From Nautiliaceae bacterium (GTDB taxonomy: Bacteria > Campylobacterota > Campylobacteria > Campylobacterales > Nautiliaceae), in NCBI GenBank assembly GCA_027038555.1, contig JALVVX010000008.1, positions 1-64,000 of the forward strand: 64,000 nucleotides of DNA, written 5' to 3'. Shown one piece after another: positions 43,387 through 51,089 of the stretch. The first letter of the stretch is position 1, and each line of letters opens with the position of its first letter. The notes beneath the pieces are model-generated. The model did not search any database, was not told the origin of the DNA, and worked only from the letters and a program-made list of their open reading frames with translations. The position numbers were made by a program, and so were the translations under genes.

Positions 43387-45018
43387 TTATTTAAAAGCGA
43401 GAATAATCCGTTTTTTGTCATATTCGACATTAATATTAAAAATTTTTTCGATTTTCTTTTTTAAATTATCAATTTCGTCAACCATTTCATCAAAATATTC
43501 AATTATTATATGTTCTTGGGAAATAATTATTTTTGAATTTTCTTTCAAAAAATTAATTATAATTTCAGTAAATAAAATTTTATCGAAATTAACTTCAAAA
43601 TCATCTCCTGAAACTTCGATATTTTGAATAAATTTAGTCATTTTCAAAATTTCAATCAAATTTTCAATTCTCTGTTTAATATAAAAATTTTCATCTGTTT
43701 CAAATGAATTTTCACAAAAATTAACAATATTTTCTATAATATCCGCATTTTTTTTACATTGTTCGTTTTTTTTAATCTCGTAAGTGATTATTTTAAGATT
43801 TTTTAACATAAATTTCAGTATATTTCCGATAGCATCGGTTTTAATTTGTATATACTCAGAATATTTTTTGCTAAATTCATTGAATTTTTCTTTTATATCT
43901 TTTTCAAGATTTCTATTCGCATCAATAATTTTGTCACTATATTTTCTCAGTTTGTAATTTTTAATAAGCAAAATAATTACAAATACTAATAAAACAAACA
44001 AAACAACACCTGTAAATGTTATATATTTTTTATACAATTCGAAAATACTTTTTGGTTTGTTAACATAAATAGCGTTTTTATATCCCAAATCATCTACATT
44101 AATATTAAACTTTTCAAGATTTTTTATATTTAAATACATTTTATTTGCTTTTTCATAAGTCAACGGAATATTACTTATTTTTTCGCCGTTTAAATACAAC
44201 AACACCTTTTTGCTTACACTTTCCCCTTGTGATAACGCATCAGTTACCTTACCTCCAATTATATTACTATTTGGTAAAGAAGCTAAAATATCAGTATGAA
44301 TAACAATAGGACTTTTATATATATCAGAAATTGTTTCTATGGCTTTTTTATAATTTATATGATTTGAATCAAAATTAAAACTAAAAGGCGTCAAAAGCAG
44401 CATACCGCTTTGTTTGTAATTTTTTATTTTCGATAATATTTCGTTTAAATCACTATTATTAATATACTCGAATTTTAAGTTGTTTATATTTTTAAAAGCT
44501 TTTTTATATTCGCTCATTACAGCCTTGGCAGAATTAGAATTATCCGCTACGACATATACTTTTTTTAAATTTTTAACAGATTTTTTTAAAAACGCTAAAT
44601 TTGCAAGAGGTTCTTTTTTTTCAAAAACACCAGTAAATTCATTTCTGTCGATTTTATTTTTTATTGAAAGATTATTAACCCCTGCAAAAAAAACTTTTGA
44701 GTTTTTAAAAAAGTCGTTTTTATGTTCGATTACAAAATTCAATGCATTGTCATCAGTTGTAATTACCGCTTCGAAATGAACTTTTTTATATTTTTTCAAA
44801 ATGTAATTATAAAAATTGTTTAAATATTCAGGAGTCGGTGCAAATAGTTTCGTATCCATAAATTCGATATATATTTTAAGGTTTTTGTCTTTTAAATTTT
44901 TAAGTATTCCTTCAACTTCTCCTCTTGTCCAAGGAAATTGGACCGAATAAGAATTTAATATCAATATATTTTTCGAAAAAACAAAAACCGTAAATAAAAA
45001 AACAACTAAATACTTCAT
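43387..45018 (-). CDS. ABC substrate-binding-like sensor with degenerate kinase domain
   Basis: 543 residues. Signal peptide YLVVFLFTVFVFS; a periplasmic ABC_sub_bind-type domain (NILILNSYSVQFPWTRGEVEGI to about 320); TM helix near 335-357 (FTGVVLFVLLVFVIILLI); a coiled coil; then a kinase-like region. The dimerisation helix lacks the phospho-His/WRQPL motif, an N-box-like LFTEIIINFLKENSK remains, and no G boxes follow. It is thus unlikely to autophosphorylate. I pick the ATG at 45018, five bases after AAAGG; a GTG lies one codon upstream. It is monocistronic, divergent from rpsO. Confidence 0.8.
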   Translation of the reverse strand: MKYLVVFLFTVFVFSKNILILNSYSVQFPWTRGEVEGILKNLKDKNLKIYIEFMDTKLFAPTPEYLNNFYNYILKKYKKVHFEAVITTDDNALNFVIEHKNDFFKNSKVFFAGVNNLSIKNKIDRNEFTGVFEKKEPLANLAFLKKSVKNLKKVYVVADNSNSAKAVMSEYKKAFKNINNLKFEYINNSDLNEILSKIKNYKQSGMLLLTPFSFNFDSNHINYKKAIETISDIYKSPIVIHTDILASLPNSNIIGGKVTDALSQGESVSKKVLLYLNGEKISNIPLTYEKANKMYLNIKNLEKFNINVDDLGYKNAIYVNKPKSIFELYKKYITFTGVVLFVLLVFVIILLIKNYKLRKYSDKIIDANRNLEKDIKEKFNEFSKKYSEYIQIKTDAIGNILKFMLKNLKIITYEIKKNEQCKKNADIIENIVNFCENSFETDENFYIKQRIENLIEILKMTKFIQNIEVSGDDFEVNFDKILFTEIIINFLKENSKIIISQEHIIIEYFDEMVDEIDNLKKKIEKIFNINVEYDKKRIILAFK

Positions 45019-45120
45019 CACTGCCTTTTTTTGTGAATTTTATCAAAAATTTGCTTTTTTACATAAAAACGGATATACTTTCAATTCATGAAAATGAAAT
45101 TTACCAATCAGGAGGCTTAC

Positions 45121-47162: not shown

Positions 47163-47789
47163 ATGAAAATTCTACTTTTGGAAGATGATTACGCTTTGGC
47201 ACACACCTTAAAAGAGATACTTGAAATTGAAGGATTTGATGTCGATATTGCCCAAAATGCAAATGAAGCGTATGAAAAAACGTATAATAAAAAATACGAC
47301 TTATATATTTTTGATATAAACTTACCCGATGAAAACGGAATAGAAGTTCTTAAAAGTCTAAAAAATGCTGATGATGATACTCCTACTGTTTTTATTACAG
47401 CATTAACCGACTTAAATACTATGGCAAAAGCATTTGAAGCGGGAAGCGATGATTATATAAAAAAACCGTTTGAACCAGAAGAGCTTATAATCAGAATAAA
47501 AGCCAAAATACAAAAAAACGGAAATTTAATAAAATTTAACGGATTTGAATATAACCCTAATGAAAAAACATTAACAAAAAACGGTAAAATTATACCGATA
47601 AGCCAAACGTTAAAAGAGATATTACACGAACTTATTATGAATAAAAACAAAATTGTTTCAAAAGAAAGACTGCTGGATATAACCGATTCAACCGAAGCGT
47701 CTTTAAGAGTGAATATAAACAAATTAAAAAACAAACTCGGAATAGATATTAAAAATATAAGAGGCGAAGGATATTTAATTGAGATTTGA
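47163..47789 (+). CDS. OmpR-family response regulator
   Basis: A 208-residue regulator. The receiver domain has the acidic pair in LLLEDDYAL, phospho-Asp52 in YIFDINLPDENGIEVL, Thr/Ser in FITALTD, and Lys in DDYIKKPFEPEEL. A winged-helix output domain follows (FNPNEKTL-like start, SKERLLDI, LRVNINKLKNKLGIDIKNIRGEGYLIEI). AAAAGGAAAT is the SD. It overlaps the kinase gene by 11 bases. Its likely target is the paired element at 48813-48849 just downstream of the kinase gene. Confidence 0.95.
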   Translation: MKILLLEDDYALAHTLKEILEIEGFDVDIAQNANEAYEKTYNKKYDLYIFDINLPDENGIEVLKSLKNADDDTPTVFITALTDLNTMAKAFEAGSDDYIKKPFEPEELIIRIKAKIQKNGNLIKFNGFEYNPNEKTLTKNGKIIPISQTLKEILHELIMNKNKIVSKERLLDITDSTEASLRVNINKLKNKLGIDIKNIRGEGYLIEI

Positions 47790-48816
47790 AAAGAAATTTT
47801 TATTATATTCATTTATTATTATATTTTCACTTTTAACGGCATTAACGGGCTCCATTCTTTACAATTTTTATATAAAAGAAAAACATTTTTTGATTGATAA
47901 AATAAAAAAAGACTTAGAGATATGTTCTTATAAATTAAACTGCAAAAATATAAAAATAGATTTCATTGAAAAAAAGAGCAATTTGAAAATTTTACATTTA
48001 TATAAAACAGACAAAAATTTTTATATGCTTTTTAATATACAGAAATTTAAAAAATACTATTTAAAACTTTCAGTTTCTAAAATATATTATCTTGGTAAAC
48101 TTGAAAAATTAAAATTAAAACTTTTAAAAATGTTTTTATTAATTCTATTTATCAATTTAATTATAACAGCAGTTTTTATTTACATTCTGCTTTTACCGTT
48201 AAAAGAAGCATATAAAATAAATGAAACATTTATCAAAGATATTCTTCACGACTTAAACACTCCTCTTACCACACTAAAAATGAATCTGTATCTTTTTAGA
48301 AAAAAACCGGATATAAAAAGAATAGATGAAATGGAAAAAAACATCCGGCGGATTTTAAAATATCAGGAAAATTTAAAAAATTTTTTATCAATGAATCCGA
48401 ATCAGATTGAAAATTTTGACATAAAAGAGCTAATTGAAGAAAAATTGAAATTTTACTCTTCTATTTATCCTGACATAAAATATGAAAACAAAGCAAGATG
48501 CAATATTTCAATTAATAAAAACGCATTTAATTCAATAATTGAAAATATAATAAGCAATGCTTTTAAATACAATAAAAAAAACGGTTACGTTAAAGTTTAT
48601 TTAGAAAATAAAAAACTGATTATCGAAGATAGCGGAATAGGTATAAAAAATCCGAAAAAAATATTTAACCGTTTTTATAAAGAACACGAGCGTGGGACAG
48701 GTATTGGTATGAATATTGTTAAAAAACTAAGTGATGAGCTTAATATTCCTATAAGAGTCGAATCAAAATTAAATACAGGAACAAAAATAATTTTGGATTT
48801 GAAAAATTACTGTTAA
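47779..48816 (+). CDS. Sensor histidine kinase of the same two-component system
   Basis: 345 residues from a TTG start inside the regulator gene. TM1 is at about 8-30, a short sensor loop of about 80 residues contains the Cys pair CSYKLNCKN, and TM2 at about 115-140. A HisKA domain follows with phospho-His in FIKDILHDLNTPLTTLK. The HATPase has N-box NIISNAFKYNKK, G1 IEDSGIGIKNP and G2 ERGTGIGMNIVKKL. It is short of a HAMP domain. The periplasmic loop is small, which suits envelope or metal sensing, but the signal is not evident. Confidence 0.94.
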   Translation: MRFEKKFLLYSFIIIFSLLTALTGSILYNFYIKEKHFLIDKIKKDLEICSYKLNCKNIKIDFIEKKSNLKILHLYKTDKNFYMLFNIQKFKKYYLKLSVSKIYYLGKLEKLKLKLLKMFLLILFINLIITAVFIYILLLPLKEAYKINETFIKDILHDLNTPLTTLKMNLYLFRKKPDIKRIDEMEKNIRRILKYQENLKNFLSMNPNQIENFDIKELIEEKLKFYSSIYPDIKYENKARCNISINKNAFNSIIENIISNAFKYNKKNGYVKVYLENKKLIIEDSGIGIKNPKKIFNRFYKEHERGTGIGMNIVKKLSDELNIPIRVESKLNTGTKIILDLKNYC

Positions 48817-48849
48817 CATTTTGTTTATATTACATTAACAAACCGTTTA
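48813..48849 (+). promoter_or_regulatory. Paired operator TTAACA-N4-GTTTA x2, 22-bp spacing
   Basis: Two 15-bp elements, TTAACATTTTGTTTA (48813-48827) and TTAACAAACCGTTTA (48835-48849), start exactly 22 bp apart, i.e. two helical turns. Each is also an imperfect inverted repeat (TTAAC...GTTTA). The downstream element covers the place of the -35 box for the TATAAT at 48861. This fits a tandem-dimer OmpR-type activator site. Confidence 0.65.
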
Positions 48850-48860
48850 CACTTTTACTT

Positions 48861-48866
48861 TATAAT
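48861..48866 (+). promoter_or_regulatory. -10 box of the secreted-protein operon
   Basis: Perfect TATAAT, 37 bases before the ATG at 48903 and 12 bases after the second operator element. No consensus -35, consistent with an activator-dependent promoter. Confidence 0.65.
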
Positions 48867-48902
48867 TTCAATGCAACAAAAAAAAAGAAAAAGGAGTTTA
48901 AG

Positions 48903-49565
48903 ATGAAACTTAAATTATCAGTAATTACATTAGGATTATTAGTAACAGGAGCTTTTGCTCAAACAAATATTGATACAACACAAAACACACAAGTAAATGT
49001 AGCAAATACACAAGCTAATGCTCAAACAAACACACAAGTAAATGTAGCAAATGCACAAGCTAATGCTCAAACAGATACACAAGTAAATATTGCAAACACA
49101 AAAACCGACGCTCAAACAGATACACAAACAAGTGCATCAAATAATAACAATAAAAAACAAGCAAAAAATATAAATCCGAAAGATATTGAAAAACAAATTC
49201 AAGAAATACAAAAATTACCAATCGACCAAAGAATTCAAAAAATGAACGAATTAAAAAAAGAATTAAGATCTTTAAATAAAGAACAAAGAGAAGAAATTTT
49301 AAGAAACATCGCAAGAGAACATCACATAAATACAGAATCAAAAGAAAAAATGCATAACCAAAAAGATCACGCCAAAGAAAAAATGCACAATCATATGAAA
49401 GATATGGAACATAACGGAATGATAGATGATAATGAAATTTATCATGATGAAATGAATAACAACGCTCAACATGACAAAGCTGAAAAAAACGACAGAACAG
49501 AAAAACACGATAATGCTGAAAGAAATGACAGAACAGATAAAAATGAACACAATAAAGGTAAATAA
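48903..49565 (+). CDS. Secreted repeat and His-rich protein, possibly Spy/CpxP-like
   Basis: 220 residues. A signal peptide (MKLKLSVITLGLLVTGAFA) is followed by three 15-residue repeats at 28-72 (NTQVNVANTQANAQT and variants). A Lys/Asn linker leads to a helical region, LPIDQRIQKMNELKKELRSL and NKEQREEILRNIAREHHI. That recalls the LTxxQ helices of Spy/CpxP periplasmic chaperones. The tail (about 145-220) is dominated by His, Met, Asp, Lys and Asn (HNQKDHAKEKMHNHMKDMEH), a plausible metal-binding tail. SD AAAAGGAG is good. It overlaps the next gene by 1 base. It is preceded by a dedicated promoter and the two-component genes. No confident family. Confidence 0.8.
   Translation: MKLKLSVITLGLLVTGAFAQTNIDTTQNTQVNVANTQANAQTNTQVNVANAQANAQTDTQVNIANTKTDAQTDTQTSASNNNNKKQAKNINPKDIEKQIQEIQKLPIDQRIQKMNELKKELRSLNKEQREEILRNIAREHHINTESKEKMHNQKDHAKEKMHNHMKDMEHNGMIDDNEIYHDEMNNNAQHDKAEKNDRTEKHDNAERNDRTDKNEHNKGK
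48984..49118 (+). repeat. Three tandem 45-bp repeats
   Basis: In-frame 45-bp units encoding NTQVNVANTQANAQT, NTQVNVANAQANAQT and DTQVNIANTKTDAQT. Units 1 and 2 are nearly identical in DNA and unit 3 is diverged. Copy number could vary between strains by slippage. Confidence 0.9.
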
Positions 49566-50332
49566 TGAAGAAATTAATTTTCTTAGGGCTAAGCGCCCTT
49601 TTTGCTTTTGCCAATGCTGCTGATAGTGACTTAGACGGTGTACCAGATAATCTTGATATATGCCCTAATACCCCTTTTTTAGAAACAGTAAATAAACAGG
49701 GATGCTCACAATCACAACTAAAAAAAATAAAAAAGAAAAAAATAAAATTTAATATCAGTGCAGGATATGAATATGATCATTATAAAAATTCAAAAAGCTC
49801 TAAATTGTTTTTTACATCTTTATCTGCTAAAAAAAATAATTTTAAATTAAGTTTATATTATTCAATATTACACGACGGATACAATAGCGGATACAAATCA
49901 AACGATTTAATAACATCACTTTATTATTATAATTATTCTCTAAACAATACATCGCTAAAATTCGGAGCCAAAATATATCTCCCCACCTTTTTCAATGATA
50001 AAACAGATTATGCTCTTTTTATACAAGGAATTTATTTCTTTGATAAATTTGATATAGGACTTAGCGAAAAACACAAAATTTACGGTGAAAGCGGAACAAA
50101 CGCAAAAGACACCATTACGGCTTTTGCAGATTTTTATTATAAAAAACTGACAATCTCTCCTTATGCTTATACTGAAAATTCTGCTTATGATTCATCTACT
50201 TGGAATAAATATGCCGGTATTACACTGTTTTATTCAATTAACAAAAAAATAGGAATAATGCTTGATTCCTCTATCGATATGGAAGAGAGTAAAAATTATA
50301 CTATTGACGGAAGTATAAGTTACGGTTTTTAA
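49565..50332 (+). CDS. Outer-membrane protein with TSP3-type calcium repeat and beta-barrel
   Basis: 255 residues. Signal peptide MKKLIFLGLSALFAFANA. A thrombospondin type-3 unit, DSDLDGVPDNLDICPNTP (about 20-38), follows, with a closing Cys in NKQGC as in OmpA-linked TSP3 domains. A beta-strand-rich barrel domain starts KIKFNISAGYEYDHYKNSK and ends in an aromatic strand, GSISYGF, a good BAM signal. There is no OmpA peptidoglycan domain. Its start overlaps the stop of the repeat/His-rich gene, so both should be co-induced. Confidence 0.85.
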   Translation: MKKLIFLGLSALFAFANAADSDLDGVPDNLDICPNTPFLETVNKQGCSQSQLKKIKKKKIKFNISAGYEYDHYKNSKSSKLFFTSLSAKKNNFKLSLYYSILHDGYNSGYKSNDLITSLYYYNYSLNNTSLKFGAKIYLPTFFNDKTDYALFIQGIYFFDKFDIGLSEKHKIYGESGTNAKDTITAFADFYYKKLTISPYAYTENSAYDSSTWNKYAGITLFYSINKKIGIMLDSSIDMEESKNYTIDGSISYGF

Positions 50333-50366: not shown

Positions 50367-51089
50367 ATGCAGTTTGATATTGTCGCGCTCTCATTTATTC
50401 TTGTTTTGATACCTCTTTTGATTTCATATAAAATGGGTATCGGCATTGAAAAAGAACTGTTTAAAAATTCAATAAGGGCTTTTTTACAATTAACGGTACT
50501 TGGTTTCATACTCGGCTTTTTATTTAAAATCAAAAATCCGCTCTGGTATATCCCAATTATAATTTTTATGCTTTTATATTCAGCCAATATAGCAAAAAAA
50601 AGAACTCACTTTTCTTTTAAAGCGGCTTTTTATTCAATCTCACTTGCAACAGTTATAATTCTTTCAATTCTTGTAGGATTAAAAATAATTTCATTTAAAC
50701 CTTATGAATTTATCCCGATAGCAGGTATGATAATAGGAAATTCGCTAAATACTTACACTTTAACTATTGAGAGATTAAAAAGGGAAATTGAACTTCAAAA
50801 AGAACTTATCGAAGCGTTTATTTCAATCGGGGCGAGTTTGGATAAAGCCTATAAAATTATGCAAAAAGAAGCGATAAAAGCGGCATTGATACCGGTTAAT
50901 AATATGTTACAAACCATAGGTGTAGTAGCAATACCCGGTATTACCACCGGTATGCTTTTAGCCGGCGCATCTCCTCTTATGGCGGTTAGTTATCAGATAG
51001 TTATTATTTATATGCTTGTAAGTATTAATCTTTTCAGTGCACTTTTTGGAAGTCTTTTTTATCTGCGCCAAAAAGAAAAATCTTTTTGA
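50367..51089 (+). CDS. FetB/UPF0014-type ABC transporter permease, no ATPase partner nearby
   Basis: About 240 residues with six or seven TM helices. The UPF0014/FetB family blocks are IRAFLQLTVLGFILG, IPIAGMIIGNSLNTYTLTIERL, EAFISIGASLDKAYK and ALIPVNNMLQTIGVVAIPGITTGMLLAGASPLMAVSYQIVIIYMLV. E. coli FetAB exports iron under oxidative stress. I use the ATG at 50367 (AAAGG six bases upstream); a TTG lies one codon earlier. No FetA-like ATPase gene is adjacent. It converges on gpmA. Confidence 0.9.
   Translation: MQFDIVALSFILVLIPLLISYKMGIGIEKELFKNSIRAFLQLTVLGFILGFLFKIKNPLWYIPIIIFMLLYSANIAKKRTHFSFKAAFYSISLATVIILSILVGLKIISFKPYEFIPIAGMIIGNSLNTYTLTIERLKREIELQKELIEAFISIGASLDKAYKIMQKEAIKAALIPVNNMLQTIGVVAIPGITTGMLLAGASPLMAVSYQIVIIYMLVSINLFSALFGSLFYLRQKEKSF

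Follow-up and report, generated by a model that had tools for sequence, protein, structure and literature searches.

A two-component system, its putative operator and a secreted protein of an unnamed family in Nautiliaceae and related Campylobacterota

When the genes of a two-component system are directly followed by two genes for exported proteins, the question arises whether these proteins are its own output and what signal it might serve. Such an arrangement is found in the first 64,000 nucleotides of contig JALVVX010000008.1 (assembly GCA_027038555.1) of a Nautiliaceae bacterium (Campylobacterota; Campylobacterales), hereafter the window. A response regulator of the OmpR/PhoB class (RR; 47163..47789, 208 aa, with receiver D51 and a short winged-helix domain) and a sensor histidine kinase belonging to an order-wide family (HK; 47779..48816, 345 aa, H157) are encoded on the forward strand in reading frames that overlap by 11 bp. 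On the same strand they are followed by a secreted protein of an unnamed family (SP; 48903..49565, 220 aa, signal peptide) and by a predicted outer-membrane protein with a TSP3 motif (49565..50332, 255 aa, signal peptide, terminal F), whose genes have one base in common (TAATG). A first-pass annotation had seen in these overlapping genes a compact two-component system with its own two-gene envelope output, and the linkage of the genes throughout the order together with a dedicated operator bears this out. The explanation favoured here, with some reserve, is that of a dedicated envelope system which would respond to copper or another soft metal and activate the SP-TSP3 pair through an array of heptamers. 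The circuit from the two-component system to SP and TSP3 is well supported by the sequence, while copper as the signal is suggested by genomic neighbours, and in the window's own family by homology only.

The assignment of the two regulatory genes to the OmpR/PhoB class is founded on four Pfam domains, all above cut-off: the receiver with its Asp (PF00072, 100.7 bits), the Trans_reg_C winged helix (PF00486, 27.3 bits against a cut-off of 26.2), HisKA (PF00512) and HATPase_c (PF02518). It is further consistent with an 11-bp direct-repeat operator at the presumed target promoter. Neither protein matches a named two-component equivalog at the NCBIfam cut-off.

The Pho box consists of 7-bp direct repeats with an 11-bp period situated just upstream of the -10 box, an architecture typical of PhoB/OmpR sites. 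The same architecture is present between HK and SP, where the annotation had noted a strong -10 and a “paired operator”: the latter consists of four direct heptamers (GTTAACA/GTTTATA/ATTAACA/GTTTACA; 48812..48851, forward strand) with an 11-bp period, and the -10 box TATAAT (48861..48866) lies 9 bp past the final heptamer. The module differs from the Pho box in the heptamer itself, which is (C/T)TAACAC-like, and in the number of copies, which ranges from two to four. The first heptamer reaches into HK, overlapping its final codon and stop, and overlap of the array with the kinase end is also seen in some Sulfuricurvum loci. At up to three mismatches the four-heptamer array is unique within the window (0.01 expected from shuffles), and in the 1.48-Mb genome holding the window the pattern of two heptamers plus -10 has a single match, exactly at SP. 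Among 65 non-redundant SP upstream regions collected across the order, a heptamer spacing of 11 bp greatly predominates; two or more in-phase heptamers occur in 39 (shuffles: mean 1.1, maximum 5), and a -10 box at fixed spacing in 29 (mean 0.11, maximum 1), the order-wide heptamer being defined with an initial C, G or A, so that the T-initial copies of the window are uncounted. Over the whole order, 115 of 399 genomes contain the operator pattern; since a reversed-pattern control also gave about 20 matches, isolated matches can be due to chance. By its architecture the operator appears to tie the regulator to SP, RR being the protein that would bind it. An operator-like site with one mismatch also stands before a PqqD-like/ATP-grasp operon in one genome (G009, L221:111-143); it is unexplained and was not used as evidence.

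A profile search detected the SP core in 119 of the 399 genomes, representing 33 genera, and in a sample of the whole phylum all 65 genomes with a match belong to the same order. At least 91 of 139 SP places lie within 5 kb of a kinase of this family; 91 are on the same strand and none on the opposite one, with SP downstream in 75 cases and upstream in 16. Where SP is present, the 80 named kinase loci mostly follow one of two recurrent orders, RR-HK-SP-TSP3 or SP-TSP3-RR-HK. Another Nautiliaceae genus has the identical order RR-HK-SP-TSP3-UPF0014, with which fragments from three more genomes agree. Neighbouring loci share descent, and the linkage counts are accordingly not independent events. 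The annotation had named separation of the four genes in related genomes as an outcome that would count against it; they proved to be linked across the order. In a tree of 107 kinases, those linked to SP are spread over most of the family; clades without an adjacent SP are formed by Sulfurovum (25 rows) and Nitratiruptor-like genomes (8 rows), a few of the “no SP” labels being contig ends. Tandem duplicates of SP or of SP-TSP3 are present in four loci (L151, L184, L186, L198), in two of which (L151 and L184) every copy of SP is provided with a separate operator.

Neither SP nor its relatives belong to a Pfam or NCBIfam family, apart from scattered low-complexity matches in the relatives. The protein was described in the annotation as secreted, repetitive and rich in His and Met, and the signal peptide, the Gln/Asn-rich tandem repeat (48983..49127; 45 bp x 3.2 copies) and a Cys-free tail (49347..49562) with 20% His+Met were all found. 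The further proposal that the Gln/Asn repeats buffer metal or misfolded proteins found no support: the repeats are lineage-specific and are absent from both relatives in which SP is readable through the region (G002 and G011), so that they were rejected as the functional element, and other T/A/Q-rich insertions occupy the same position in further relatives. What is conserved is a helical core of about 50 residues (49173..49346; I99, M114, N115, K118, R129). Structure prediction gave three helices, with confidence in the core only and not in the repeat region or the tail. In the families f20 and f9, the latter judged Arcobacteraceae-like from its gene content, proteins of 74-81 aa that comprise the core only stand behind the same operator and beside the kinase; profile comparison gives a 95% probability of homology, which identifies the core, rather than repeats or tail, as the conserved element. 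In four loci of these families (L283, L284, L291, L302), a second small gene resembling SP (83-85 aa) immediately precedes RR, in addition to the operator-linked one. The tails, for their part, are distinguished by composition: His+Met make up 15% of them on average but 4.4% of 87 secreted-like neighbours (p=4e-22), and Cys is nearly absent.

The helices of SP had been likened to those of Spy and CpxP. The helical core is supported by the structure prediction, whereas homology to Spy/CpxP was rejected by Pfam, profile-profile and fold comparisons: the LTXXQ domain (PF07813) was not found in SP (hhalign probability 1.1%), and no PDB fold matched SP at E<1, including the cradle-shaped helical fold of Spy, CpxP and ZraP. 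Matches of the SP profile to PDB sequences such as Protein A look compositional and were discarded.

As to the second exported protein, the one-base overlap with SP was confirmed, and its TSP3 character comes down to a single copy of PF02412 (E=1.8e-4), which at 21.6 bits falls below the Pfam cut-off of 25; the residues of the motif are nonetheless invariant in an alignment of 10 homologues. A signal peptide, the C-terminal SYGF and a strand-like pattern, together with the conserved GYYF at the end of the homologues, suggest that the 255-aa product is an outer-membrane barrel.

The candidate sensing site lies in the kinase. In the AF2 model (mean pLDDT 88), HK is predicted to consist of a first transmembrane helix, a periplasmic beta domain of about 45 residues (58-100) and a second transmembrane helix leading straight into the dimerisation helix; no HAMP domain is predicted. 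Two cysteines, C49 and C55 (CSYKLNC, codons 47923..47943), form a C-x5-C pair that may sense metal or redox state. Both are invariant in 65 aligned kinases of the main clade, and in the named loci all 80 kinases of the family have the pair. The model places C49 at the end of the first transmembrane helix and C55 in the loop preceding the beta domain, an arrangement in which a disulfide or a metal site is plausible. A fold search returned generic kinase cores alone and was uninformative on the sensor domain.

Several genes around the module in other lineages concern metals, and the metal theme of the annotation is backed by this context. In Sulfurimonas, genes for ArsR/SmtB, an SO_0444 Cu/Zn exporter, an outer-membrane factor, an adaptor and CusA/CzcA run into SP-TSP3-RR-HK, with scores above the cut-offs (CusA/CzcA 930/701, SO_0444 393/300, ArsR/SmtB 86/55 bits). 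The link to heavy-metal efflux that characterises CusRS/CopRS is thus present in some Sulfurimonas and not in Nautiliaceae. In three loci the neighbour of a module variant without the cysteines is an OprC-like receptor, accompanied by TonB in two, and in three of the order's families the operator pattern stands before such receptors. All seven OprC-like receptors inspected retain the CxxxM and HxM motifs, the type of motif that forms the copper site of OprC (PMC8610252); one scores 648 against a TonB-copper cut-off of 472, and for the rest TonB-copper is the best match at a score short of that value. Two families have NosL next to SP-TSP3 or RR-HK. In G002, a genome of the same family as the window, the sole second operator match lies 30 bp upstream of a secreted protein with 17% Met and 21% Gln, and in G212 an operator after HK precedes genes for a Met-rich cytochrome c and a Met-rich LTXXQ protein. 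The commonest extra neighbours are DUF2202 proteins (15 of 55 loci), some of which bear the operator. In three Sulfurimonas-like loci (L287, L300, L301), operator-like sites precede DUF2202 proteins beside multiple CxxCH proteins, a neighbourhood that is possibly an electron-transfer cluster.

Taken together, these features would fit the following scheme. HK would sense the periplasm through its very small domain, where the C49-x5-C55 thiols would most likely bind a soft metal such as Cu(I) or Ag(I), or else switch between disulfide and dithiol. The kinase would then phosphorylate the PhoB-like RR, which would bind the 11-bp-spaced heptamers next to the -10 box and turn the SP-TSP3 operon on, activation being favoured here over repression. 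Exported SP would probably engage the kinase or another envelope partner through its helical core, in a feedback of the CpxP/ZraP type, its variable His/Met-rich tail may bind metal, and the TSP3 barrel may serve as its partner in the outer membrane.

A number of observations weigh against this scheme. Many Sulfurovum kinases among the 80 named loci have no adjacent SP, Nitratiruptor-like genomes keep SP-TSP3 elsewhere, away from RR-HK and with no operator, and a sister subclade of kinases lacks C-x5-C yet retains SP. The operators linked to OprC-like receptors are of a TTAACAC variant and possibly belong to a sibling regulator. Genes for efflux and for import are both found around the module, so that the response could run in either direction. 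Moreover, no CusA/CzcA scores above cut-off in Nautiliaceae, and the neighbour of SP-TSP3 in the window is a FetB-like permease below the cut-off of its family; for these two reasons copper is assigned to the window species by homology only. Because SP-TSP3 persists alone in the Nitratiruptor-like genomes, it is the stable pair of the module. It is found without RR-HK or operator in loci L225, L229 and L231, and in L229 it runs on into ExbB/ExbD/TonB-like genes and NosL.

Of the other explanations, thiol-redox or protein-folding stress in the envelope fares best, being nevertheless clearly less probable than the metal-responsive circuit. Here C-x5-C would act as a disulfide switch, SP would be chaperone-like without being Spy or CpxP, and the metal genes would be secondary. 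The modelled placement of the cysteines, at a helix end and in the following loop, is open to a disulfide; the helical core is kept while the tail varies, down to the core-only Arcobacteraceae-like proteins, and in G212 the operator-linked position is filled by a true LTXXQ protein. Recurrent metal genes in independent clades and the Met/His enrichment would, however, be unexpected under this explanation, and SP is without homology to Spy, CpxP or ZraP. It is rather unlikely that the signal is zinc, nickel or iron instead of copper, or that different lineages use one circuit for different metals. The Cys-free tail of the window SP, with 12.5% His and 25% Asp/Glu, the FetB-like neighbour in four Nautiliaceae genomes and the ability of the SO_0444 family to export Cu or Zn would suit such a metal, but the OprC-type receptors with their copper motif and the NosL of other lineages, as well as the Met-rich operator-linked protein in a genome of the window's own family (G002), argue for copper. 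A role of SP-TSP3 in surface functions or adhesion, with a generic two-component system as a mere neighbour, seems scarcely credible in view of the order-wide same-strand linkage and the conserved operator at SP, even if TSP3 proteins are frequent in other parts of these genomes and the pair stands alone in Nitratiruptor-like ones.

The proposed copper- or soft-metal-responsive circuit can be compared with several described systems. With CusRS-CusCFBA of Escherichia coli (TIGR01386/TIGR01387) it shares an OmpR-class regulator and a periplasm-sensing kinase, and some relatives likewise have an associated CusA-type efflux cassette and Met-rich periplasmic protein; the scores, on the other hand, are far below the cut-offs (RR 92.6 against 279.2, HK 51.5 against 292.55). 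In CusS, His/Met sensor sites have been described (PMC10100754), whereas the sensor domain of the module is much smaller, has C-x5-C and no predicted HAMP. CpxRA-CpxP, ZraSR-ZraP and Spy resemble it in combining a two-component system with an adjacent gene for a small helical periplasmic protein, but SP lacks LTXXQ and the fold match, and the Cpx equivalogs score below cut-off (CpxR 86.8 against 341, CpxA 63 against 486). The module works like CusRS or CpxRA-CpxP and, by the tests run, is a member of neither. CrdRS-CrdA of Helicobacter pylori is similar in host phylum, in copper and in the pairing of a two-component system with a Met-rich periplasmic protein; CrdA has been described as CopC/PcoC-like and devoid of His (PMC9182242), a description that sets it apart from the helical SP with its His/Met tail. 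In a limited set of papers, no literature link was found between thrombospondin and Sulfurimonas or between DUF2202 and copper, which fits the earlier statement that no system with this combination has been described; the sources searched likewise yielded no data on expression, binding or structure for any member. On the whole, the first-pass reading of a private two-component system with an envelope output, probably concerned with metal, has stood, and the kinship to Spy/CpxP and the importance of the repeats have not.

Downstream of the module, 34 bp after the TSP3 gene, a UPF0014/FetB-like permease is encoded on the forward strand (50367..51089; PF03649, 208.8 bits). Its best NCBIfam match is FetB (150.7 bits, under the cut-off of 410); it is the conserved next gene in Nautiliaceae and is possibly co-transcribed with the module. 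An RND transporter at the end of the window (60950-64009, reverse strand) matches CusA/CzcA weakly (213 bits against 701) and by this cut-off is not of the heavy-metal class. Upstream, the reverse-strand gene at 43387-45021 encodes a secreted or membrane protein which, by eye, has an ABC substrate-binding-like N-terminus and a degenerate kinase-like C-terminal part; its position as a neighbour is conserved in G009 (L044).

It may tentatively be proposed that SP represents a new protein family, in which a helical core reports to a C-x5-C kinase, the metal-binding tail is exchangeable and the TSP3 protein is the partner. The module would then constitute an undescribed envelope route for copper or soft metals in Campylobacterota of vents and sediments, where non-homologous outputs (SP, the Met-rich LTXXQ protein, DUF2202 and OprC-like receptors) would be swapped behind one conserved operator. 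A small two-Cys periplasmic sensor combined with an output made of a core and a swappable tail can be tested gene by gene. In the bacteria dominant at hydrothermal vents, the circuit would place families that are unnamed (SP) or of no known function (DUF2202, TSP3 barrels) in an order-wide regulon whose operator is readable.

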